Program-made: the position numbers and the translations under genes
In this document: piece after piece, positions 1-13,092 of the stretch
Position numbering within the stretch: position 1 is the first letter of the stretch
How the letters are laid out: each line of letters begins with the position of its first letter
IMG/VR virus record: IMGVR_UViG_3300035034_001068
Span: 1 to 20,085 of that record
Reading direction: 5' to 3' (one strand)
DNA length: 20,085 nucleotides
Source of the DNA: a virus
The notes under the pieces: model-generated
What the model was told of the DNA's origin: nothing
The model's input: only the letters and a program-made list of their open reading frames with translations
Databases searched by the model: none

Positions 1-1364
1 GAAGCCAAGTTTCCGTTTGTTACAACGTACTGAGCAGGACCAACACGACCTTCAGTCGCAATATAGTTTGATGAATTCAAGATTTTAGTGATAAGTTTTC
101 TCTGAACTGCATGAGAAGTTTCACCAGTAAGACCTGAGTCTGCAAGGAAACCTTCAACGTCAAAGTCAAAGATAGTTTCTCCTGTGATATTCGCAGTAGA
201 TGAACTTCTAGTAGGAGCCGAAACTCTGTTTAATTCACCCATTTCGAATATTTTAGCAACGATTTGCTTAGAGATAGTTTGAGATAACTCATTTACTAAG
301 ATAGACTCCATCTTTTGAACGATGTCCATACCAGTGTTAGCCTTGATATCTTCAATCTCTGTTCTTTTAAGAGCAGTAGAAATTTCGATAGTACCAACAG
401 CGATAGTCTTAGTAGATACGTTTGGTGCAATAATACCAGGATAAGAAGTATCATCTTCGCCTCTTCTCATTGGCGCAGTGTTTGAACTCCAGTTAGAAAC
501 ATATCCTGGGATATGGTCTTCTAATGCAGAAATCAATTCTATGTCAACTTTTAACGCAGTAAATGAAACTGCGCCAATTCCACTAGAACCAACAAGTGAA
601 TCTAAGAAACCAGCTTCTAATACAGTTTTCATAACATCAGTTGCTGCAAATGTATTCAATGTATCATTAAATGTCCATGCACCTGTAGATGCAGTGTTTG
701 CTTGTCTAAAGCTTCTGAACATTGGTAGTCCATCAATTCTAGAGAATCCTAAAAACTCAACAACATTTTCTTTACTAGTTAAGTTACTAATATCAGTATG
801 TGAAGTTAATACAGAACCACCTGTTGCTCCAGCTAAGTTAACATAAATTCTAGATGTTAAACCACCAACTGTTTCCTTGATACCTAAAGTAGTCATGATG
901 TCAAGTAAATAAGTTTTTAATTCAGCTTGCTCATTTGCTTCATCAGCTCTAAGTTTCCATACTTGTGGCTTTTCGTCACCTTCAAGTGGAGTATCATCGT
1001 ATTTAAAGTCGATGTACATCAAGTCAATTTTTGGACCTGGAGAAGGTTTTACAGCTACAAGGTCTAAACCAATAGTTTGAGCTGCGATTTTCATTGCCAC
1101 TGGCAATAATTGTTGACCGTAGTCACCTGAACCTTGTTGTGCACCAGAGGTACCAACGGTTACACCAGGGATTCCAGCAGGCTGTGCAGATGTTACATTA
1201 CCCATACCACCTATGTTACCTTGGTTTGCATATGCTAAGTTCTCACTTACTGCGTGAAGTTCAGCATACTCAGACATCCAATCAAGTCTATCTGAATCTT
1301 GTACTCCCATGTTTTCTAACACTGGAGACCATTTTTTCAACGCTTTCGCTTTGTCGATATTCAT
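1..1364 (-). CDS. 23: Major capsid protein, T4 gp23-like (3' end outside window)
   Basis: Open frame read from ATG at 1364 to the left edge with no stop, giving about 454 visible residues; T4 gp23 has 521, so roughly the last 60 or so may be missing. The protein forms the hexamers of the prohead shell. Stretches resemble gp23: an N-terminal helical delta region (MNIDKAKALKKWSPVLE), then LLPVAMKIAAQTIGLDLVAV, equivalent to the segment that opens the mature T4 capsomer domain, a G-rich insertion, and IEISTALKRTEIEDIKANTG, matching the gp23 segment on assembly-dependent helices. (I/L/M)-x-E-like tripeptides near residues 30-41 (MSE, VSE) could be where the prohead protease removes the N-terminal delta peptide, but the exact site is not determined. 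It is last in a minus-strand head block after gp20 and gp21/22, as in T4, and has its own late-promoter-like motif upstream at 1395-1407. The assignment rests on recalled family similarity, not a search. Confidence 0.9.
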   Translation of the reverse strand, partial: MNIDKAKALKKWSPVLENMGVQDSDRLDWMSEYAELHAVSENLAYANQGNIGGMGNVTSAQPAGIPGVTVGTSGAQQGSGDYGQQLLPVAMKIAAQTIGLDLVAVKPSPGPKIDLMYIDFKYDDTPLEGDEKPQVWKLRADEANEQAELKTYLLDIMTTLGIKETVGGLTSRIYVNLAGATGGSVLTSHTDISNLTSKENVVEFLGFSRIDGLPMFRSFRQANTASTGAWTFNDTLNTFAATDVMKTVLEAGFLDSLVGSSGIGAVSFTALKVDIELISALEDHIPGYVSNWSSNTAPMRRGEDDTSYPGIIAPNVSTKTIAVGTIEISTALKRTEIEDIKANTGMDIVQKMESILVNELSQTISKQIVAKIFEMGELNRVSAPTRSSSTANITGETIFDFDVEGFLADSGLTGETSHAVQRKLITKILNSSNYIATEGRVGPAQYVVTNGNLA

Positions 1365-1473: not shown

Positions 1474-3669
1474 TTAGTCAAGGTTTTTAAATCTCTCCAT
1501 AATACCAGTGATGGCAACGTCCGATAACTTATCCTCTTGGATGAAGTCATTTTTCTCTACCAATTGTTTTGTAACAGATTCGTTCTTCTTCATCTTTCTA
1601 GTAGACCAGAAATGTGAGACATTAGACTCTGTTGTTAAATCTGGGTAAAGTCTAGCTTGTGATAAGATACTTACCTTCGCTTTATCCTCTAATTGTTCCC
1701 AGATTGGTTTGATGTCACTAGGCATCAATCTAATAAGTCTATCTTCAAGAGATTCCTCTTGAACTGACAGTGCTTCTTTCATAAGCTTTAGTACGTCTCC
1801 GCTTGTGAAGAAATTGCCCTTCTCGTTTATATGGACAATAACTGATTCTTGTTCGTCTTTAGACAAGTCGTAGAATGAATCTACTTGTGACTTGTTTAAG
1901 AAGTTCAAGAAGTGATGCTCATTAGTTTCAGAAGCTTTACGTTTCTTAGCTTCTGTTATTAAGTTATCTATTTGTACTGATAATTTCGTTTTTTTCGTTT
2001 CTCCCATCATTTCCTCTTCTTCTTCAGCAGATGGTTCGCCTTCCATTCCTGGCTCAGCTAATTCATCATCTGAATTTTCATCTCCGTATTCAGACTCAAG
2101 ACCTTCTTCGCCAGCTTCTAATTCGCCAGCAGCCTCATCATCATCATCACATACAACGTGACAGTTTTCACCACCTTCGTCTTCAGAGTCAAATTCACTA
2201 TCAAGTTCGCCATCTGGCTCACCATCAGTAACATCCATAGCATCACCTTCCATGTTAGGTTCTTCAACCGCATCAAAGCCTGCATCCTGTGGAGTAGGGA
2301 ATGTTTCTTCTTCTTCTTCGCTTCCGAATGCTTCATTAATTTTAGAATTTGAATTCAATTTTTCAGAAATCATCTTCGTGTAACTAATTGATTTATCTAA
2401 TCCTTCTGCGATATAATCAGAGTAAGAAATGTTATCATCTAAGTTTTCAGCGATATACTCAGAGTATGCAATATTACCTTCTAAATTCTCTGCTAAATAT
2501 TCAGAGTAAGAAATGTTGTTATCTACATGCTCAGCGATGTATTCACCATATTCAATATTTTTGTCTAAGTTTTCAGCAATATATTCTGTATAATCAATGG
2601 TTTTATCCAAGTTTTCAGCAATGTATTCTGAATAGTCAATATTTTTAGATAAATTCTCAGCTAAATAATCAGAAAAACTAATAGATTTGTCTAAGTTTTC
2701 AGCAATGTATTCATTATACTTAATAGAATTATCTAAATTCTCTGCTAAATAATCAGAAAATTGAATAGATTTATCAACTTTCTCAGTGATAGATTGATTA
2801 CTTTCAATTATTTTTGTTTGATTATTTCTCAATTCTTTGTTTTCATTAACTACGAATTGAATCTTTTCAGCTAAGTAATCTAAGTACTTAACCAATTTAC
2901 CGTTATCGGTTTGTAAACTTTCATAATAAGCTAGTAATTCATCCATTTTCTTAGGAGTCAAATCACCTTTTTTCAAAGCTTCGTTTACTTTTTTTCTAGT
3001 GTCACCAAGCTCACCCACTAAATATTGTGAGTACTCTGCTAACTGCTGTTTTGTTACTAAATCATTCTGGTTCATGTTGAATAACTCGTTAATTTTTGTC
3101 TCATCTTCCATAGAGTAAACTCTAAAGTTTGAGTTATTTGAATATCCACAAGATTCATTTATTGATGACATTTTAGCAGAACCAAATCCTGGGTCAGCTA
3201 CGATATCATAAGTGAAAAGCTTTTTAAGTGTCACCGAACCATCAGATTCAGTAATACCAGCCGCTCTTGAAGATACGAATAGAGGAAGTTCATCATCTAC
3301 AATAGATTGGGCTTCCTTACCCCATTGTGTGTTCAAAAGTTGAATTTTACCTTCTACTATATTTGCTTCTTGGTTATAAGAAATATCTTTAATAACGTGT
3401 GAGGCTCTTGCTAGAGATGTGTCAAACACATCTGGATGGTCAAATTCACCAAAAACAACACCTAATGATGACATTCTAGTTTGTAACTCTTCTAAACAAG
3501 GTAAAAACCTATCAGCAGTGTAAATTCTTTCATTTCTGTTCTTTATATCGAACTCAGTAAAAGGACCTCCTAATATGTATTTTTTCTTGCCAGTTTTATC
3601 AACCTCAACTTCTTCATTTAGACTCAATGAGTTGTTGTGATTTTTTTGTACAATCATTACGTTTTTCAT
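1474..3669 (-). CDS. 21: Prohead protease fused to prohead core scaffold (gp21-gp22-like)
   Basis: 731 residues from ATG 3669. Residues about 28-172 resemble the T4 gp21 / herpes-type assemblin serine protease: GEFDHP with His78, FVSSRA with Ser134 and TYDIVADPGF with Asp155 as the probable triad. An (I/L)-x-E tripeptide (INE, 170-172) closes this domain and may be an autocleavage point. Residues about 200-300 are helical. Residues 301-440 are ten tandem 14-residue repeats of the form NISYSEYIAENLDK. Residues 451-556 are very acidic, and 557-731 form a Lys/Glu-rich helical C-terminus. T4 gp21 has about 212 residues and its scaffold gp22 is a separate gene; here no separate gp22, gp67 or gp68 is seen between gp20 and gp23, so this one gene probably supplies both protease and core. 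Every repeat contains [IL]-[AS]-E, the gp21 cleavage consensus. The protease call is strong; the scaffold role is inferred from position, composition and repeats. Confidence 0.88.
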   Translation of the reverse strand: MKNVMIVQKNHNNSLSLNEEVEVDKTGKKKYILGGPFTEFDIKNRNERIYTADRFLPCLEELQTRMSSLGVVFGEFDHPDVFDTSLARASHVIKDISYNQEANIVEGKIQLLNTQWGKEAQSIVDDELPLFVSSRAAGITESDGSVTLKKLFTYDIVADPGFGSAKMSSINESCGYSNNSNFRVYSMEDETKINELFNMNQNDLVTKQQLAEYSQYLVGELGDTRKKVNEALKKGDLTPKKMDELLAYYESLQTDNGKLVKYLDYLAEKIQFVVNENKELRNNQTKIIESNQSITEKVDKSIQFSDYLAENLDNSIKYNEYIAENLDKSISFSDYLAENLSKNIDYSEYIAENLDKTIDYTEYIAENLDKNIEYGEYIAEHVDNNISYSEYLAENLEGNIAYSEYIAENLDDNISYSDYIAEGLDKSISYTKMISEKLNSNSKINEAFGSEEEEETFPTPQDAGFDAVEEPNMEGDAMDVTDGEPDGELDSEFDSEDEGGENCHVVCDDDDEAAGELEAGEEGLESEYGDENSDDELAEPGMEGEPSAEEEEEMMGETKKTKLSVQIDNLITEAKKRKASETNEHHFLNFLNKSQVDSFYDLSKDEQESVIVHINEKGNFFTSGDVLKLMKEALSVQEESLEDRLIRLMPSDIKPIWEQLEDKAKVSILSQARLYPDLTTESNVSHFWSTRKMKKNESVTKQLVEKNDFIQEDKLSDVAITGIMERFKNLD
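2350..2769 (-). repeat. Ten 42-bp coding repeats (14-residue units) in the scaffold region
   Basis: Ten consecutive 42-base units encode residues 301-440 of the protease-scaffold protein. The consensus unit is [SN]I.[YF]SEY[IL]AENLD[KN]. All ten keep an (I/L)-x-E tripeptide; the last reads MISEKL. The period of 14 equals two heptads, consistent with a coiled-coil rod. DNA copies differ at synonymous positions, so selection appears to act on the protein. Confidence 0.9.
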
Positions 3670-3841: not shown

Positions 3842-5593
3842 TTAGAATTCGAAGTCATCATCTCCACCAGCATCATCTCCACCAGCATCATCTCCGCCGG
3901 CATCATCACCAGCATCTCCACCCGCATCTCCACCGAAGTCATCTCCACCGCCGAAGTCATCATCTCCACCGAAGTCATCACCTCCACCGAAGTCATCACC
4001 TCCACTATCACCTCCGCCATCAGCAGCTCCTCCTGAGCCACCTGCTATACCAGAAGGATGTTTTTCCCACATAGCTCTATTTTCTTGCTTTTCTTCTTCT
4101 GTGAGTTTCATTATAGTATCAATAAGGTATTCCACATGGAAATAAGGCTTATCATCAACAGTGATTGTACTCAGCATACTAGCCACAATCTCACCTCTTT
4201 TTTGTAGGTTATTTAATCGCTTCCACTCTTCGAATAAATCATTTGAAAAGAATTCAACATTTACATCATTCAGGAATGTTGAGTCGTCCATTAATTCCGG
4301 ATATTCAATTAGCATTTGAAGTTTTAATGGCTTAACAACAAGTTCTTTGAATGTTGTTCTCAGCCTGGATATAAAGTTTGAAAATTTAACTTCATCCCTT
4401 GTCATTTCAGATGCATCTGAATATATATTACCACCACCATTATCAGAATCAAATCGTGTAAATGGAATTCTAGAAGCTCTTTTAAGTGCATTAAAGAACC
4501 ATGTTAGCATGTCGCTCTCGTTAAGGTCATGTCCTTCTGGAGAGACTAGTTCCATATCAGGAGTGCCGGTATCACCCTCTGGAAACCAAATTTGTTTATT
4601 ATATGGTAGGTGCTTTTGTCCATTAATTTGAACAGTTCCTAAATCATCATCGAATTCTATTTCTTCACTATAATCCGAAATCAACTGAGCAATTTGCTCC
4701 TCTGCCCTTTGTCTAGAAATACCTTGTACTGGAATGGTGAATTTCTGATATACTGTAGCATGAACCATGTTATACATGATTTTAGTTTGCTCAATAATTT
4801 TTAGTTGATTATACGGTCTGATTAAGCCTTCTACATAAGAAGTTTCAGAATAATCATTCTGTGTTTTATATGAGATATAAATCAATTGTGAGTCCAATAG
4901 AACCCTTCTCAGTTGAGGGTCTTCTGGATATTGAATCCAGATGTGCTCACCTGTTGTTGGTTCGAATCCAGGTACAAAGGTAGCTGCATCTAATTGCTCA
5001 AAACTAATAATAGTTTGTTGCTTATCATCATAGATAATTTCAAATGCTAAAAAGCCATCTACTAAAAATGCTTTGAAGTATTCCCAAGCCATCTTACCAT
5101 CGTTAAATCCAAATGCTTGATAAATATCATTGAAAGCTTCTTGATAACGGTCTTTAATATCCTGTGAAAAATCTTCGGATAATGAAGTTGGTGAACAGAA
5201 ATCTTTCTCATCATCATACACAATTCCTTCATCGGCAATTGTAGTTACAAAATCCTTAATTTCATCTTTAATTGAATACTCTCTTAATATTCTTCTCTTA
5301 TCACCATAAGATTGGTCTAAATAAGGTATAGACTTTCGGTTCATTATTGATGCAATAGCCCTTTGTGAAAAGAAGTCATACATACCATAATTTTTAACTG
5401 CCTGTGGGTCTTCGTTGATACCAATTGCTACTCTATTACGAGAAACCATATCGTCGTAATTCATACCCCACGAAGAAAGATTTCTAAGAACTTTACTAAA
5501 GAAACTTTTATTCTGAGTTGAGCTAGACATATTACCTCCATCTGCGTAGGGATTATACTGACTAGAATTTTGTGGATTGTAACTTCCTGCCAT
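3842..5593 (-). CDS. 20: Portal protein, T4 gp20-like
   Basis: 583 residues from ATG 5593. The portal forms the dodecameric ring at the special vertex through which DNA is packaged and to which the neck attaches. Features typical of gp20-family portals include an N-terminal segment on recurrent MYDFFSQRAIASIMNRKSI, a clip/stem part with long helices, WFFNALKRASRIPFTRFD and the following EMTRDEVKFSNFISRLR segment, which corresponds to the strongly conserved gp20 C-terminal core (ALRIPSSRL... followed by RDE-x-KF). T4 gp20 has about 524 residues; the extra length is largely a Gly/Asp tail (515-583). The gene is first of the minus-strand block gp20, gp21/22, gp23, matching T4 order without gp67 and gp68. 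A weaker AT-rich box (AAATATATAAT on the minus strand, 5614-5624) lies about 20 bases upstream. The start is preceded by an A/T leader with no Shine-Dalgarno. Confidence 0.9.
   Translation of the reverse strand: MAGSYNPQNSSQYNPYADGGNMSSSTQNKSFFSKVLRNLSSWGMNYDDMVSRNRVAIGINEDPQAVKNYGMYDFFSQRAIASIMNRKSIPYLDQSYGDKRRILREYSIKDEIKDFVTTIADEGIVYDDEKDFCSPTSLSEDFSQDIKDRYQEAFNDIYQAFGFNDGKMAWEYFKAFLVDGFLAFEIIYDDKQQTIISFEQLDAATFVPGFEPTTGEHIWIQYPEDPQLRRVLLDSQLIYISYKTQNDYSETSYVEGLIRPYNQLKIIEQTKIMYNMVHATVYQKFTIPVQGISRQRAEEQIAQLISDYSEEIEFDDDLGTVQINGQKHLPYNKQIWFPEGDTGTPDMELVSPEGHDLNESDMLTWFFNALKRASRIPFTRFDSDNGGGNIYSDASEMTRDEVKFSNFISRLRTTFKELVVKPLKLQMLIEYPELMDDSTFLNDVNVEFFSNDLFEEWKRLNNLQKRGEIVASMLSTITVDDKPYFHVEYLIDTIMKLTEEEKQENRAMWEKHPSGIAGGSGGAADGGGDSGGDDFGGGDDFGGDDDFGGGDDFGGDAGGDAGDDAGGDDAGGDDAGGDDDFEF
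3845..4051 (-). repeat. Gly/Asp low-complexity tail of the portal protein
   Basis: This stretch codes for the last 69 residues of the portal, almost entirely Gly, Asp and Ala, in irregular units such as GGDDF, GGGDDF and AGGDD, ending DDDFEF. The DNA is correspondingly a degenerate short repeat (tcatctccacc-type units on the plus strand), richer in GC than its surroundings and likely to change length by slippage. Confidence 0.85.
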
Positions 5594-10299: not shown

Positions 10300-11325
10300 A
10301 TGTCATTAAGAGCAGAATATATTTGGTTAGATGGTAATGAGGTTCAATGCCTGCGTTCAAAAACAAAAATTATAGATACTAAAGAAAAATACATGAGTCC
10401 TGATGTCGTACCAGATTGGAATTTCGATGGCTCTTCTACTAAACAAGCAACCACGGATAACTCAGAAATGATTTTAAAACCGTATAAAACATGTAAAAAT
10501 CCTATTGATGGAGGTATTTTAGTTTTATGTGGCGTTTATGATACTGAAGGTAATCCACATTCCACGAATCATAGGGCTAAGTTAGAAAAAACTGTATCAC
10601 AAAAGGATAAGGAAACTTGGTATGGATTTGAACAGGAGTATATAATATACGATAACGCAACTAAAAGACCATTAGGTTGGTCTGCTGCTCCAGAAACATA
10701 TCCAGAGAAACAAGGTCAGTATTATTGTGGAGTAGGTGGTAATTACGTAGCTGGTAGAGAATTTGTTGAAGAGCACTTACAAAAATGCTTATCAATAAAT
10801 TTACAAATAGGTGGTATAAATGCCGAAGTTATGTTAGGTCAATGGGAGTATCAAATTGGTCCAGTAACAGCTTTGGATGGCTCAGACGAATTGTGGATTT
10901 CAAGATATTTACTTTATAGATTAGCAGAGAAATATAATTATTATATTAACATAGAACCTAAGCCGTTTAAAGGAGATGACTGGAACGGTTCTGGTATGCA
11001 TGTTAATTTTTCAACAAGTGACATTAGAAATAACATTAGTCGTAAGAAAGAATTAGCCTTTGAGTATTGTGAGAAACTAGAAGCTAAACACGTTGAGCAC
11101 ATTGCAGTTTATGGACAAGGGAATGAAGATAGGCTAACCGGTTCTAACGAGGCTCCTTCAATAAATGAATTCAAATCTGGTATTGGAGACAGAACAGCAT
11201 CGGTCAGAATACCTTATAGCATTCTGGATAGACACACAAAGGGTTATATTGAAGATAGAAGACCATCATCAAACGCAAATCCTTACGTAGTTGTTGAAAA
11301 ATTAATTAATACAATCTGTTCTTAA
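10300..11325 (+). CDS. glnA: Glutamine synthetase, type II (GSII)
   Basis: 341 residues, the usual length for the GSII class found in eukaryotes and in Bacteroidetes and other bacteria. It would catalyse ATP-dependent synthesis of glutamine from glutamate and ammonia in the cytosol. Conserved segments are all present: beta-grasp PDWNFDGSS (38-45), WYGFEQEY (107-114, metal-binding Glu111 and Glu113), NAEVMLGQWEYQIGP (Glu176, Glu183), KPFKGDDWNGSGMHVNFST (substrate/ATP region with His234), GIGDRTASVRIPY (Arg303) and GYIEDRRPSSNANPY (Glu318, Arg320, Arg321). No active-site residue appears lost, so an active enzyme is predicted. The start ATG follows an A-rich leader (aatatttaaa). The next gene starts one base after its stop, so it heads an operon with the winged-helix-like gene and adenylate kinase. 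A phage glutamine synthetase is an auxiliary metabolic gene, probably acquired from a host. Confidence 0.92.
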   Translation: MSLRAEYIWLDGNEVQCLRSKTKIIDTKEKYMSPDVVPDWNFDGSSTKQATTDNSEMILKPYKTCKNPIDGGILVLCGVYDTEGNPHSTNHRAKLEKTVSQKDKETWYGFEQEYIIYDNATKRPLGWSAAPETYPEKQGQYYCGVGGNYVAGREFVEEHLQKCLSINLQIGGINAEVMLGQWEYQIGPVTALDGSDELWISRYLLYRLAEKYNYYINIEPKPFKGDDWNGSGMHVNFSTSDIRNNISRKKELAFEYCEKLEAKHVEHIAVYGQGNEDRLTGSNEAPSINEFKSGIGDRTASVRIPYSILDRHTKGYIEDRRPSSNANPYVVVEKLINTICS

Positions 11326-12281: not shown

Positions 12282-12596
12282 TTAATCAACTATTTCTAAA
12301 AATTTATGATTTGTTAGTTTATCAGTATCCTTATTGTTATATGAGGAACCATGCCAACCACCTTGCTCACCCCAGTATTCTAGAGAATCTCCATTAGTAT
12401 TATCATTGAATTTAATATTATTCATTCTATAAAACTTTTGTATAAATTCTCCACTTGGATTCAATTGAGCATACTTGGCTTCGCCTGGTACACTACCTTC
12501 TATATCAGTTCTTTTAATTGTATTAACAATATTAATTTTATCCTCAACACTTTCTAACACTGTACTAAAACTTTCGAACTTTTTTAAATGTTTCAT
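12282..12596 (-). CDS. Unknown small protein with a capsid-targeting-like N-terminus
   Basis: 104 residues from ATG 12596. The N-terminal peptide MKHLKKFESFS resembles the short amphipathic leader (MKTYQEFI.E in T4 internal proteins) that directs proteins into the prohead; however no clear (I/L)-x-E cleavage tripeptide follows, so support is weaker than for its neighbour. The remainder (VEDKINIVNTIKRTDIEG... WGEQGGWHGSSYNN) is unrecognised and has no membrane segment. It starts one base after the stop of the upstream gene on the same strand (12598), so the two are an operon, and it ends at the bidirectional terminator. Confidence 0.65.
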   Translation of the reverse strand: MKHLKKFESFSTVLESVEDKINIVNTIKRTDIEGSVPGEAKYAQLNPSGEFIQKFYRMNNIKFNDNTNGDSLEYWGEQGGWHGSSYNNKDTDKLTNHKFLEIVD

Positions 12597-12597
12597 G

Positions 12598-13092
12598 TTA
12601 GTTACAATCTTTTTCGAATTTATCTTTCATTGCTTGAATTTTATCTTCAAGGTCTACCTTATTTATATTTCCTATATGGTGTGATGTACCATTTACACCA
12701 ATTGCATAACCTTTATCTTTCTCATCCCAAACATAAATTTTCTTACCACATTTAGTATCTACATACCTTGTTTTAGTAGATTCATTTTTATCAATCGAAG
12801 CCATAGAGTCATCGAAACGCTCTAATTCATCTTCACGAACTCTACCACCGGATGAAATGCCTTGTGGGTTTATTAAGTTATATAATATAACACCCATGTC
12901 CACAAATGCATAATCAATAGTATACGACTCATAACGACCGTTTGACCAGTCTACTTTATCACCTTTGATGAATTTAGCACGTTGTAATAAGTTATAATCA
13001 GCATCACCTAATTGGGATTTTTGTTTATTTCTATATTCCTCGTCTAAGATAGAATTTTCATTTATAAATTGGTTATATTTCTTGATTGCCAT
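12598..13092 (-). CDS. Unknown protein with capsid-targeting-like leader, possible internal head protein
   Basis: 164 residues from ATG 13092. The first dozen residues, MAIKKYNQFINEN, closely match the T4 capsid-targeting sequence (MKTYQEFI.E) and contain INE, an (I/L)-x-E site for the gp21 protease. If the analogy holds, the leader would be clipped at Glu12 and the remainder (about 152 residues) packaged in the head. The following segment (FIKGDKVDWSNGRYESYTID... GRVREDELERFD) looks like a small SH3-type beta barrel; the C-terminus is helical (KVDLEDKIQAMKDKFEKDCN). Otherwise unknown. First gene of a two-gene unit with the gene at 12282-12596. Confidence 0.65.
   Translation of the reverse strand: MAIKKYNQFINENSILDEEYRNKQKSQLGDADYNLLQRAKFIKGDKVDWSNGRYESYTIDYAFVDMGVILYNLINPQGISSGGRVREDELERFDDSMASIDKNESTKTRYVDTKCGKKIYVWDEKDKGYAIGVNGTSHHIGNINKVDLEDKIQAMKDKFEKDCN

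Follow-up and report, generated by a model that had tools for sequence, protein, structure and literature searches.

A single gene in a 20,085-base window, the complete IMG/VR virus record IMGVR_UViG_3300035034_001068, encodes a 731-residue protein in which a phage T4 gp21-type head maturation protease is fused to a long scaffold with a rod of 14-residue repeats. The gene probably encodes the prohead core of a huge phage of the Mahaphage type, in which the protease would cut itself free from the scaffold on maturation. The sequence-only reading of the window had described a protease–scaffold fusion with ten 14-residue repeats, an acidic belt, and a helical tail, all of which are present in the minus-strand open reading frame (ORF):

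1474..3669, minus strand: whole fusion gene, 731 amino acids, comprising protease, linker, repeat rod, acidic belt, and helical tail (ORF, ATG to stop)
3154..3669, minus strand: T4 gp21-type head maturation protease domain, residues 1–172, with conserved H78 and S133/S134 (profile and fold)
2377..2796, minus strand: ten 14-residue units, residues 292–431, consensus EY[IL]AENLDKNIxYS, predicted helical rod (periodicity and model)
2362..2790, minus strand: eleven [IL]xE motifs at 14-residue spacing, E296 to E436, candidate secondary cleavage sites (motif)
1990..2331, minus strand: acidic belt, residues 447–560, 42% D/E (composition)
1477..1986, minus strand: C-terminal helical domain, residues 562–731 (model of the domain alone; predicted local distance difference test (pLDDT) 72.6, predicted template modelling score (pTM) 0.36)

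Relatives of the fusion gene

The best matches in the phage collection lie in genomes of 634,780, 636,363, 642,428, and 735,411 bases (50–63% identity over 82–88% of the protein), with a further match at 33% identity in a genome of 462,018 bases. The four largest genomes of Al-Shayeb et al. 2020 belong to the Mahaphage clade, have predicted Bacteroidetes hosts, and appear alongside Lak phages (PMC7162821). From the 369 relatives in viral_contigs the best 80 were retained, and the 85 sequences of clade A were thinned to 52 non-redundant ones at 93% identity. The more distant clade B consists of 22 loci from a second search with the protein of the 462-kb genome; L116 (no complete ORF) and L111–L114 (partial) were left out, and L006 duplicates L095.

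The protease half

Both fold and sequence support the assignment of the protease half to the T4 gp21 type. Residues 2–185 match the phrog_207 profile (E 1.8e-30), hhalign aligns the protease to T4 gp21 (probability 91.5, E 8.7e-7), and T4 gp21 (5jbl, three chains; E 2.6e-8) is the sole Protein Data Bank (PDB) match at E ≤0.001 when Foldseek is run with the protease model. Comparison of this model with 5jbl in VIA gives a Z of 16.7 and a root-mean-square deviation of 2.5 over 144 aligned residues, and herpesvirus proteases follow in the ranking at a weak level (Z about 5–7). Across 38 sequences, H78 and S133/S134 never vary; their counterparts in T4 gp21 are H85 and S140/S141, which are catalytic there. 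The fusion protein has no Pfam family match at E 0.01, and phmmer against PDB sequences returned a single weak match (E 0.34). In the AlphaFold2 model of the whole protein (mean pLDDT 60, pTM 0.30), the protease and the tail are of fair confidence.

Second protease-like genes occur in the 735-kb phage (L119 1815–2351, phrog_207 E 3.4e-19) and the 462-kb phage (L121 1841–2245, E 7.6e-13). Both lack the catalytic His and the SSR serines and may be inactive paralogues with a structural role; SPN3US, too, is reported to have a diverged paralogue of its protease (PMC5694885).

The rod, belt, and tail

Ten [IL][AS]E motifs stand exactly 14 residues apart (E310 to E436), and an eleventh site, ITE (E296), is in the same register. 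The early observations that [IL]-[AS]-E is kept in all ten repeats and that INE (residues 170–172) ends the protease domain were thus accurate. Within residues 291–445, 10 [IL][AS]E are observed where 0.72 are expected (10,000 shuffles, maximum 5), and 11 [IL]xE where 3.8 are expected, a number reached by 3 of the 10,000 shuffles. Self-identity of the same residues is 0.56, 0.59, and 0.52 at lags of 14, 28, and 42, and at most 0.16 at all other lags from 3 to 44. The rod is modelled by AlphaFold2, at low confidence, as helices 278–327 and 330–440, a nearly continuous helix at 278–440.

The tail contains an invariant FW that is common to clade B, Lak-A1, and the Tenacibaculum phage PTm1; a search with the tail by itself brought no PDB match at E ≤0.001. 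Sequence comparison failed to identify the scaffold as gp22: hhalign of the scaffold half against gp22 gives probabilities of 0.5 and 0.1, and residues 200–731 have no match at E 1 to phrog_237, the gp22 family, which T4 and S-SSM7 gp22 do match. Since phrog_237 also has no match in any of seven huge-phage records (two being nearly one phage), the scaffold is gp22-like by place and composition rather than by sequence.

Units resembling the 14-residue EY[IL]AE repeat also occur three to four times each in small or collagen-like separate proteins, in three of the seven records:

L117 2436–2639; L118 1761–2384; L120 2118–2315: separate proteins with repeat units

Gene order

A gp20-type portal gene (3842..5593, minus strand; PF07230, E 8.4e-63) precedes the fusion gene, and downstream, also on the minus strand, a gp23-type capsid gene starts at 1364 (PF07068, E 4.5e-11). 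No ORF of 60 amino acids lies wholly inside the gap between the fusion gene and gp20, and none of 30 amino acids lies between the fusion gene and gp23, in keeping with the earlier statement that separate gp22, gp67, and gp68 genes are absent here; a gp22 gene elsewhere in the genome, which that reading had named as evidence against itself, was likewise not found in the seven records searched with phrog_237. In 80 of 80 relatives (the best 80 of 369, counted on the gp23 side), gp23 starts 22–199 bases downstream of the fusion. The gene thus occupies, directly before gp23, the place of the T4 gp22 scaffold gene, and it holds protease and scaffold in one reading frame, as do nested genes of the UL26/UL26.5 type.

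A possible scaffold-only product

T4 uses 576–580 copies of gp22 per 55–100 of gp21 (PMC9958956, PMC5694885). A fusion would give protease and scaffold at 1:1, unlike T4, and a scaffold-only product started at M199 would solve this stoichiometry. Two features bear on such a product:

1477..3075, minus strand: putative product of 533 residues, scaffold only, from a candidate in-frame start at M199 inside the gene (Met conservation)
3082..3144, minus strand: linker block, residues 176–196, where codon choice in relatives is more constrained than anywhere else in the gene (relative entropy)

Among 85 clade-A sequences, 84 have Met at the column of Met199 and the remaining one has it one residue earlier; M[ED] is found in 17 of 17 clade-B linkers at another alignment column. 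The ten best of 456 11-codon windows all fall within residues 178–198, with mean relative entropies that peak at 1.02 bits; the value for the gene is 0.19. In clade B, GGATATATAGAA is the best promoter-like site of the gene in 14 of 18 loci (5 or 6 of the 14 being independent) and lies 45–48 bases before the ATG, counted from TATATA. On a matrix built from 93 gp21 and gp23 upstream sites, it scores 9.8–10.9 against a median of 10.7, values reached by 1–12.5% of synonymous-codon shuffles. These patterns suggest a scaffold-only product from an internal start, as in herpesvirus UL26/UL26.5.

The opposing view, that no such product exists and that the core contains nothing but fusion protein, each scaffold carrying its own protease, has a little under an even chance of being right. 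The linker of the window itself scores −2.4 and lacks the promoter-like core of its relatives, which leaves only the ATG as support in this sequence. All 52 clade-A linkers score 5.8 or less (2.8 in 23 of them), under the 5th percentile of the gp21 and gp23 upstream sites (6.3), and a second, simpler codon measure ranks the linker block 15th of 528 windows, with parts of the tail higher. What this view leaves unexplained is that residues 173–204 hold the top codon constraint of the gene by relative entropy, that an ATG is conserved in both clades at different columns, and that in 14 of 18 clade-B loci the best promoter-like site of the gene lies shortly before the ATG.

Two further signals were set aside. 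AGG at codon 183 is present in 39 of 52 relatives (AGG makes up 92 of 883 Arg codons), and a motif of this kind precedes M187 in 39 of 51, but a Shine-Dalgarno role is unlikely because starts in this family lack such motifs (gp21 1/51, gp23 0/50, ORFs of at least 200 amino acids 9/332). The clade-A element AGGATATATGAAATG was rejected as a general promoter: its scores are low, and with at most one mismatch it occurs at five places in the seven records, three of which are this gene. Inspection of 31 clade-A loci by eye showed, in many of them, a second conserved element, roughly TATAAAAAATCCACC, some tens of bases upstream of the TATATA boxes of both gp21 and gp23.

Proposed maturation of the core

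Alongside the fusion, fold, gene order, repeats, and motif conservation and excess observed here, we infer, as the best explanation, a set of cleavages, their order, and a role for the rod. The core beneath the gp23 shell would be built from the helical repeat rod together with the acidic belt and the conserved C-terminal helical domain, and the protease, being tethered to the scaffold, would thereby be placed in that core. On maturation, the protease would free itself by a cut after INE172, the rod would be parted from the belt by a cut after INE446, and gp23 would be trimmed after VSE41 by the same protease. The rod would probably be nicked at the [IL]AE of its repeats, with the core leaving as peptides.

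The scaffold as a likely protease substrate

T4 gp21 cuts after L/I-X-E (PMC9026906), in agreement with the rule from which the sequence-only reading had started, and T4 gp22, gp67, and gp68 are reduced to small peptides (PMC9026906, PMC9958956). In scaffold regions delimited by eye, [IL]xE exceeds shuffled sequence 1.9–3.2-fold in 10 of 11 regions and seven of eight lineages. Observed and shuffled counts are 23 and 11.8 for the window, 26 and 13.2 for L002, 22 and 11.4 for L004, 18 and 7.1 for L107, 16 and 6.4 for L095, 20 and 7.6 for PTm1, 20 and 7.8 for SP-15, 23 and 7.2 for GAP32, 16 and 5.8 for T4 gp22, and 15 and 6.1 for S-SSM7 (all p ≤0.0025). Eight other window proteins tested, of 22, have no excess (p ≥0.11).

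The glutamate of the motif is also conserved in the way expected of the P1 residue at a protease site. Of 183 distinct clade-A units, 181 have E at position 5 and the other 2 have G; D never occurs there, whereas E and D replace each other at two further acidic positions (position 1, 152 E and 24 D; position 8, 147 D and 31 E). In clade B (58 distinct units from eight sequences, with the register set without position 5), conservation is highest at E5 (2.86 bits), while the preceding residue varies (1.55 bits). A glutamate that never becomes D in one clade and is the best kept column in the other is more in line with a protease motif than with a position fixed by a coiled coil. The residue after the glutamate (P1′) is N in 399 of 608 repeat motifs, compared with 164 of 1,265 other motifs, and it is N at the presumed gp23 site in 87 of 88 sequences. 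The motif-rich scaffold is thus, on this pattern, supported as a likely substrate of its own fused protease.

Which sites would be cut

Candidate cleavage sites outside the repeats are as follows, with a slash marking the presumed cut:

3154..3162, minus strand: putative release (self-cleavage) site INE/S, residues 170–172 (site conservation)
2332..2340, minus strand: INE, residues 444–446, end of rod, candidate second junction cleavage site (site conservation)
1242..1364, minus strand: gp23 N-terminal region up to the putative maturation site VSE/N, gp23 residue 41 (motif)

At the junction, 51 of the 52 non-redundant relatives have [LI]NE/S and one has INE/T, and N171 and E172 are invariant in 38 sequences. 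The rod-end site is [ILVM]xE in all 52, most often LNE/S (15) or LFE/S (8). The presumed gp23 site reads [IVML]xE/N in 87 of 88 sequences and INE/N in 82 of them.

Gene starts give a further view of the sites that the lineage favours. Motifs, rather than genes, were counted at residues 7–28 and in internal windows of uncurated ORFs of at least 60 amino acids, picked longest-first in 400-kb samples of five genomes (635, 642, 636, 735, and 462 kb; 54–87% of each). [ILV]NE is enriched at gene starts in all five, with 50 motifs in 515 genes of the 735-kb genome (3.9-fold, p 1.3e-13), 28 in 587 at 642 kb (2.5-fold), 27 in 544 at 635 kb (2.3-fold), 34 in 540 at 462 kb (1.9-fold), and 33 in 593 at 636 kb (2.15-fold; p <0.001 for each of these four). 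Four of the genomes also show an excess of [ILV]FE (642 kb: 40 in 587, 6.2-fold); in the 462-kb genome this motif falls outside the five strongest, and M, C, and I at P2, the residue before the glutamate, rank above N. The preferred site of the lineage therefore looks like [ILV]-[N/F]-E. The repeat motifs, with A before the glutamate and N or H after it, may be a second choice at best, and the rod ends at E172 and E446 are accordingly read as the main candidate cuts.

Several observations weigh against the proposed maturation scheme. [ILV]AE is enriched at gene starts in none of the five genomes (0.34–1.38-fold), and A is the P2 residue of the repeats. The residue after the repeat glutamate (P1′) is H in 115 of 608 repeat motifs. 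L095 keeps [ILV]xE in only 6 of its 11 periodic units, the gp23 of the window carries VSE and not [IL]xE, and the [IL]xE count of the Lak-A1 scaffold, 9 against 5.6, is not significant (p 0.095). To these is added the lack of a detectable sequence relation to T4 gp22 by hhalign and phrog_237.

Some of these points are what would be expected if the repeats formed a purely structural coiled-coil rod, in which the glutamate was kept for helix packing or salt bridges and cuts fell at the rod ends and in the tail only. Such a rod, which is possible if somewhat doubtful, would account for A at P2 where the presumed junction, rod-end, gp23, and leader sites mostly have N or F, for H at P1′, for the 14-residue period that L095 retains though 5 of 11 units are without the motif, and for the nearly continuous helix of the low-confidence model. 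It accounts poorly for a glutamate that, unlike the acidic residues at positions 1 and 8, is never exchanged for D across 183 units, for its rank as the best kept column of clade B, and for an excess of [IL]xE in scaffolds without this repeat, such as those of T4 gp22 and GAP32.

The proposal that each repeat carries the protease's own cleavage consensus therefore needs qualification: [IL]xE is indeed kept, but the consensus is that of T4, and the presumed sites of this lineage prefer N or F at P2. Similarly, a substrate role for the rod is supported by motif excess and glutamate conservation, and cutting at every repeat into 14-residue peptides is unproven, given A at P2. Self-destruction of the core by its fused protease is plausible.

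Likeness to capsid-targeting sequences

The T4 internal proteins IPII and IPIII start MKTYQEFIAEA, and the Y-x-E-F-I-A-E of this capsid-targeting sequence resembles the repeat core Y-S-E-Y-I-A-E. The repeats share the targeting core aromatic-x-x-aromatic-aliphatic-x-E (repeat columns 13, 2, 3, and 5); however, they are internal and tandem within the scaffold, unlike the single N-terminal cargo leader of T4, and leaders sit only on separate proteins. On a position weight matrix (PWM) built from 69 repeat octamers, the IPII/IPIII leader scores 18.0 and a typical repeat 23.9.

This likeness raises the prospect, tentative and on present evidence unlikely, that the repeats are tandem capsid-targeting modules, with cargo bearing one leader copy docking into the rod and being freed by the same cut. 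The 735- and 642-kb genomes prompted the idea, and the 462-, 636-, and 635-kb genomes were added as a repeat test. At a PWM score of 8, hits at N-termini exceed internal ones 2.0–4.8-fold in the five genomes, with p <0.05 in four: 14/515 against 18/3187 at 735 kb (p 3.6e-5), 8/587 against 14/3066 at 642 kb (p 0.017), 11/540 against 14/3024 at 462 kb (p 5e-4), 10/593 against 19/2963 at 636 kb (p 0.015), and 7/544 against 20/3106 at 635 kb (p 0.095). Aromatic residues at both P4 and P7 of [ILV]NE sites are found in 18 of 53 N-terminal and 1 of 137 internal sites at 735 kb, and in 8 of 32 and 6 of 104 at 642 kb. The presence of repeat units in separate proteins in three of seven records, and the score of the IPII/IPIII leader itself, point the same way.

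Controls temper this reading. At a score of 10, column-permuted PWMs reached the observed fold in 0, 1, 6, 10, and 12 of 100 cases (735, 636, 462, 635, and 642 kb, respectively), so that the likeness is clear by itself in the 735- and 636-kb genomes only and suggestive in the rest. A looser PWM gave 19 of 515 N-termini against 10 of 3187 internal windows at a score of 10 in the 735-kb genome; at a score of 6 it was exceeded by permuted ones in 1 of 20 (735 kb) and 5 of 20 (642 kb) cases. The commonest leader of the 642-kb genome, K-x-Y-K-[IL]-F-E/S, is without the P4/P7 pattern, and the T4 IPI leader does not match the repeat PWM (−4.1).

One ORF of the window, whose N-terminus reads MAIKKYNQFINEN, may be such a cargo protein:

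12598..13092, minus strand: candidate cargo protein with capsid-targeting-like leader MAIKKYNQFINE/N (PWM 10.2 against 18.0 for the T4 leader; putative function)

Candidate capsid-targeting propeptides of the forms M-K-x-L-K-x-Y-K-[IL]-F-E/S and M-x-K-K-Y-x-x-F-I-N-E occur at 12282–13092 of the window and at ORF N-termini in the genome samples, numbering dozens in those from the 642- and 735-kb genomes. A broader and still less probable scheme would have one code for the whole core, with the rod as an array of targeting modules, dozens of leader-bearing cargos, a site at each contact for the protease tethered to the rod, and a nested start for excess scaffold, on the herpesvirus pattern. If this were true, one activation event would dissolve the core and free the cargo.

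A separate peptide, DPYGEExW (DNA GAYCCNTAYGGNGARGARNNNTGG), occurs 103 times in LR756501.1 (735 kb), and neither in six other huge-phage records nor for a reversed-pattern control. It lies near the N-termini, near the C-termini, or inside varied ORFs (30 places looked at; e.g., L118 1761–2384, L119 1815–2351, and L128–L157), is found in 94 stretches of viral_contigs with many copies on some contigs, and is perhaps a sorting tag.

Repeat number and head size

That the core sets head length or size by its number of repeats, as the sequence-only reading had suggested, is very improbable and was rejected: although the spacing is regular, the number is near-constant within the clade (10–13 across 52 non-redundant relatives), and the highest count among the four largest genomes is that of the 735-kb one, there are 10, 11, 11, and 12 units in genomes of 636, 635, 642, and 735 kb without tracking of size—four genomes cannot give a trend—and the 584-residue fusion of Lak-A1 (540 kb) has none of these repeats, with PTm1 (225 kb) carrying a different one.

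Comparison with known systems

The fusion resembles T4 gp21/gp22 in its protease fold (5jbl), conserved His and Ser, location between gp20 and gp23, and motif-rich scaffold before gp23. It differs in that T4 keeps protease and scaffold in separate genes, with gp67 and gp68 between gp20 and gp21, and in that T4 gp22 has no 14-residue repeats and no sequence relation to this scaffold.

Herpesvirus UL26/UL26.5 shares the N-terminal protease, C-terminal scaffold, single frame, and junction release site, together with the weak structural likeness of the proteases already mentioned. UL26.5 overlaps UL26 in frame and encodes the scaffold (PMC4498786); the nested product is established there and only suggested here, and the cleavage rule is different.

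Single protease–scaffold proteins of 527–584 amino acids are also found in the Tenacibaculum phages PTm1 and pT24 (the latter known here from its structure-library entry only), Bacillus phage SP-15, and Prevotella phage Lak-A1. The capsid gene directly follows the fusion in PTm1 and SP-15, and the C-terminal FW pattern is shared by PTm1 and Lak-A1; in Lak-A1, gp23 was not recognised beside the fusion gene in the stretch examined. In none of the four was the 14-residue EY[IL]AE rod found. PTm1 instead has, by eye, units of about 16 residues that each contain LSE or LCE, another array with an [IL]xE motif, over about the middle third of the protein (NC_049340), and its protein, used as a query in viral_contigs, matched PTm1 itself alone. 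Fused or nested protease–scaffold genes of other protease families and scaffolds are known from phage P2 (gpO) and lambda (gpC/Nu3).

The fusion gene of Lak-B2 (L008 7397–8734) appears to be in pieces under table 11, and that of Lak-A1 is intact. The Lak-B2 break is probably a recoded stop codon, such codons being known in Lak phages.

Protease-bearing long proteins of 527–657 amino acids had already been deposited for PTm1, pT24, and others, and phrog_207, at 519 positions, spans the 568-residue protein of SP-15 end to end; the protease–scaffold fusion itself is thus not new. What is new, and well supported, is the form that the T4-type gene for the prohead core takes in very large phages, built of repeats and fused to its protease. 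Partly aimed queries of the open-licence literature returned no description of the 14-residue repeat rod or of the nested start, a weak negative.

Other features of the window

A glutamine synthetase gene lies at 10300–11325 (PF00120, E 1.8e-20). The portal protein, read directly, ends in a long glycine/aspartate-rich tail with GGDD repeats (3845–4040).

Implications for head assembly in very large phages

In the T4 review, the mechanisms that localise core proteins are said to 'remain mysterious', and the structure of the core is described as unresolved (PMC9958956). A scaffold made of a regular, nameable module offers a handle on both. The analysis further identifies parts of the head-assembly machinery in very large phages, represented here by metagenomic records, and leaders with [ILV]NE or [ILV]FE provide a way to list predicted packaged proteins.

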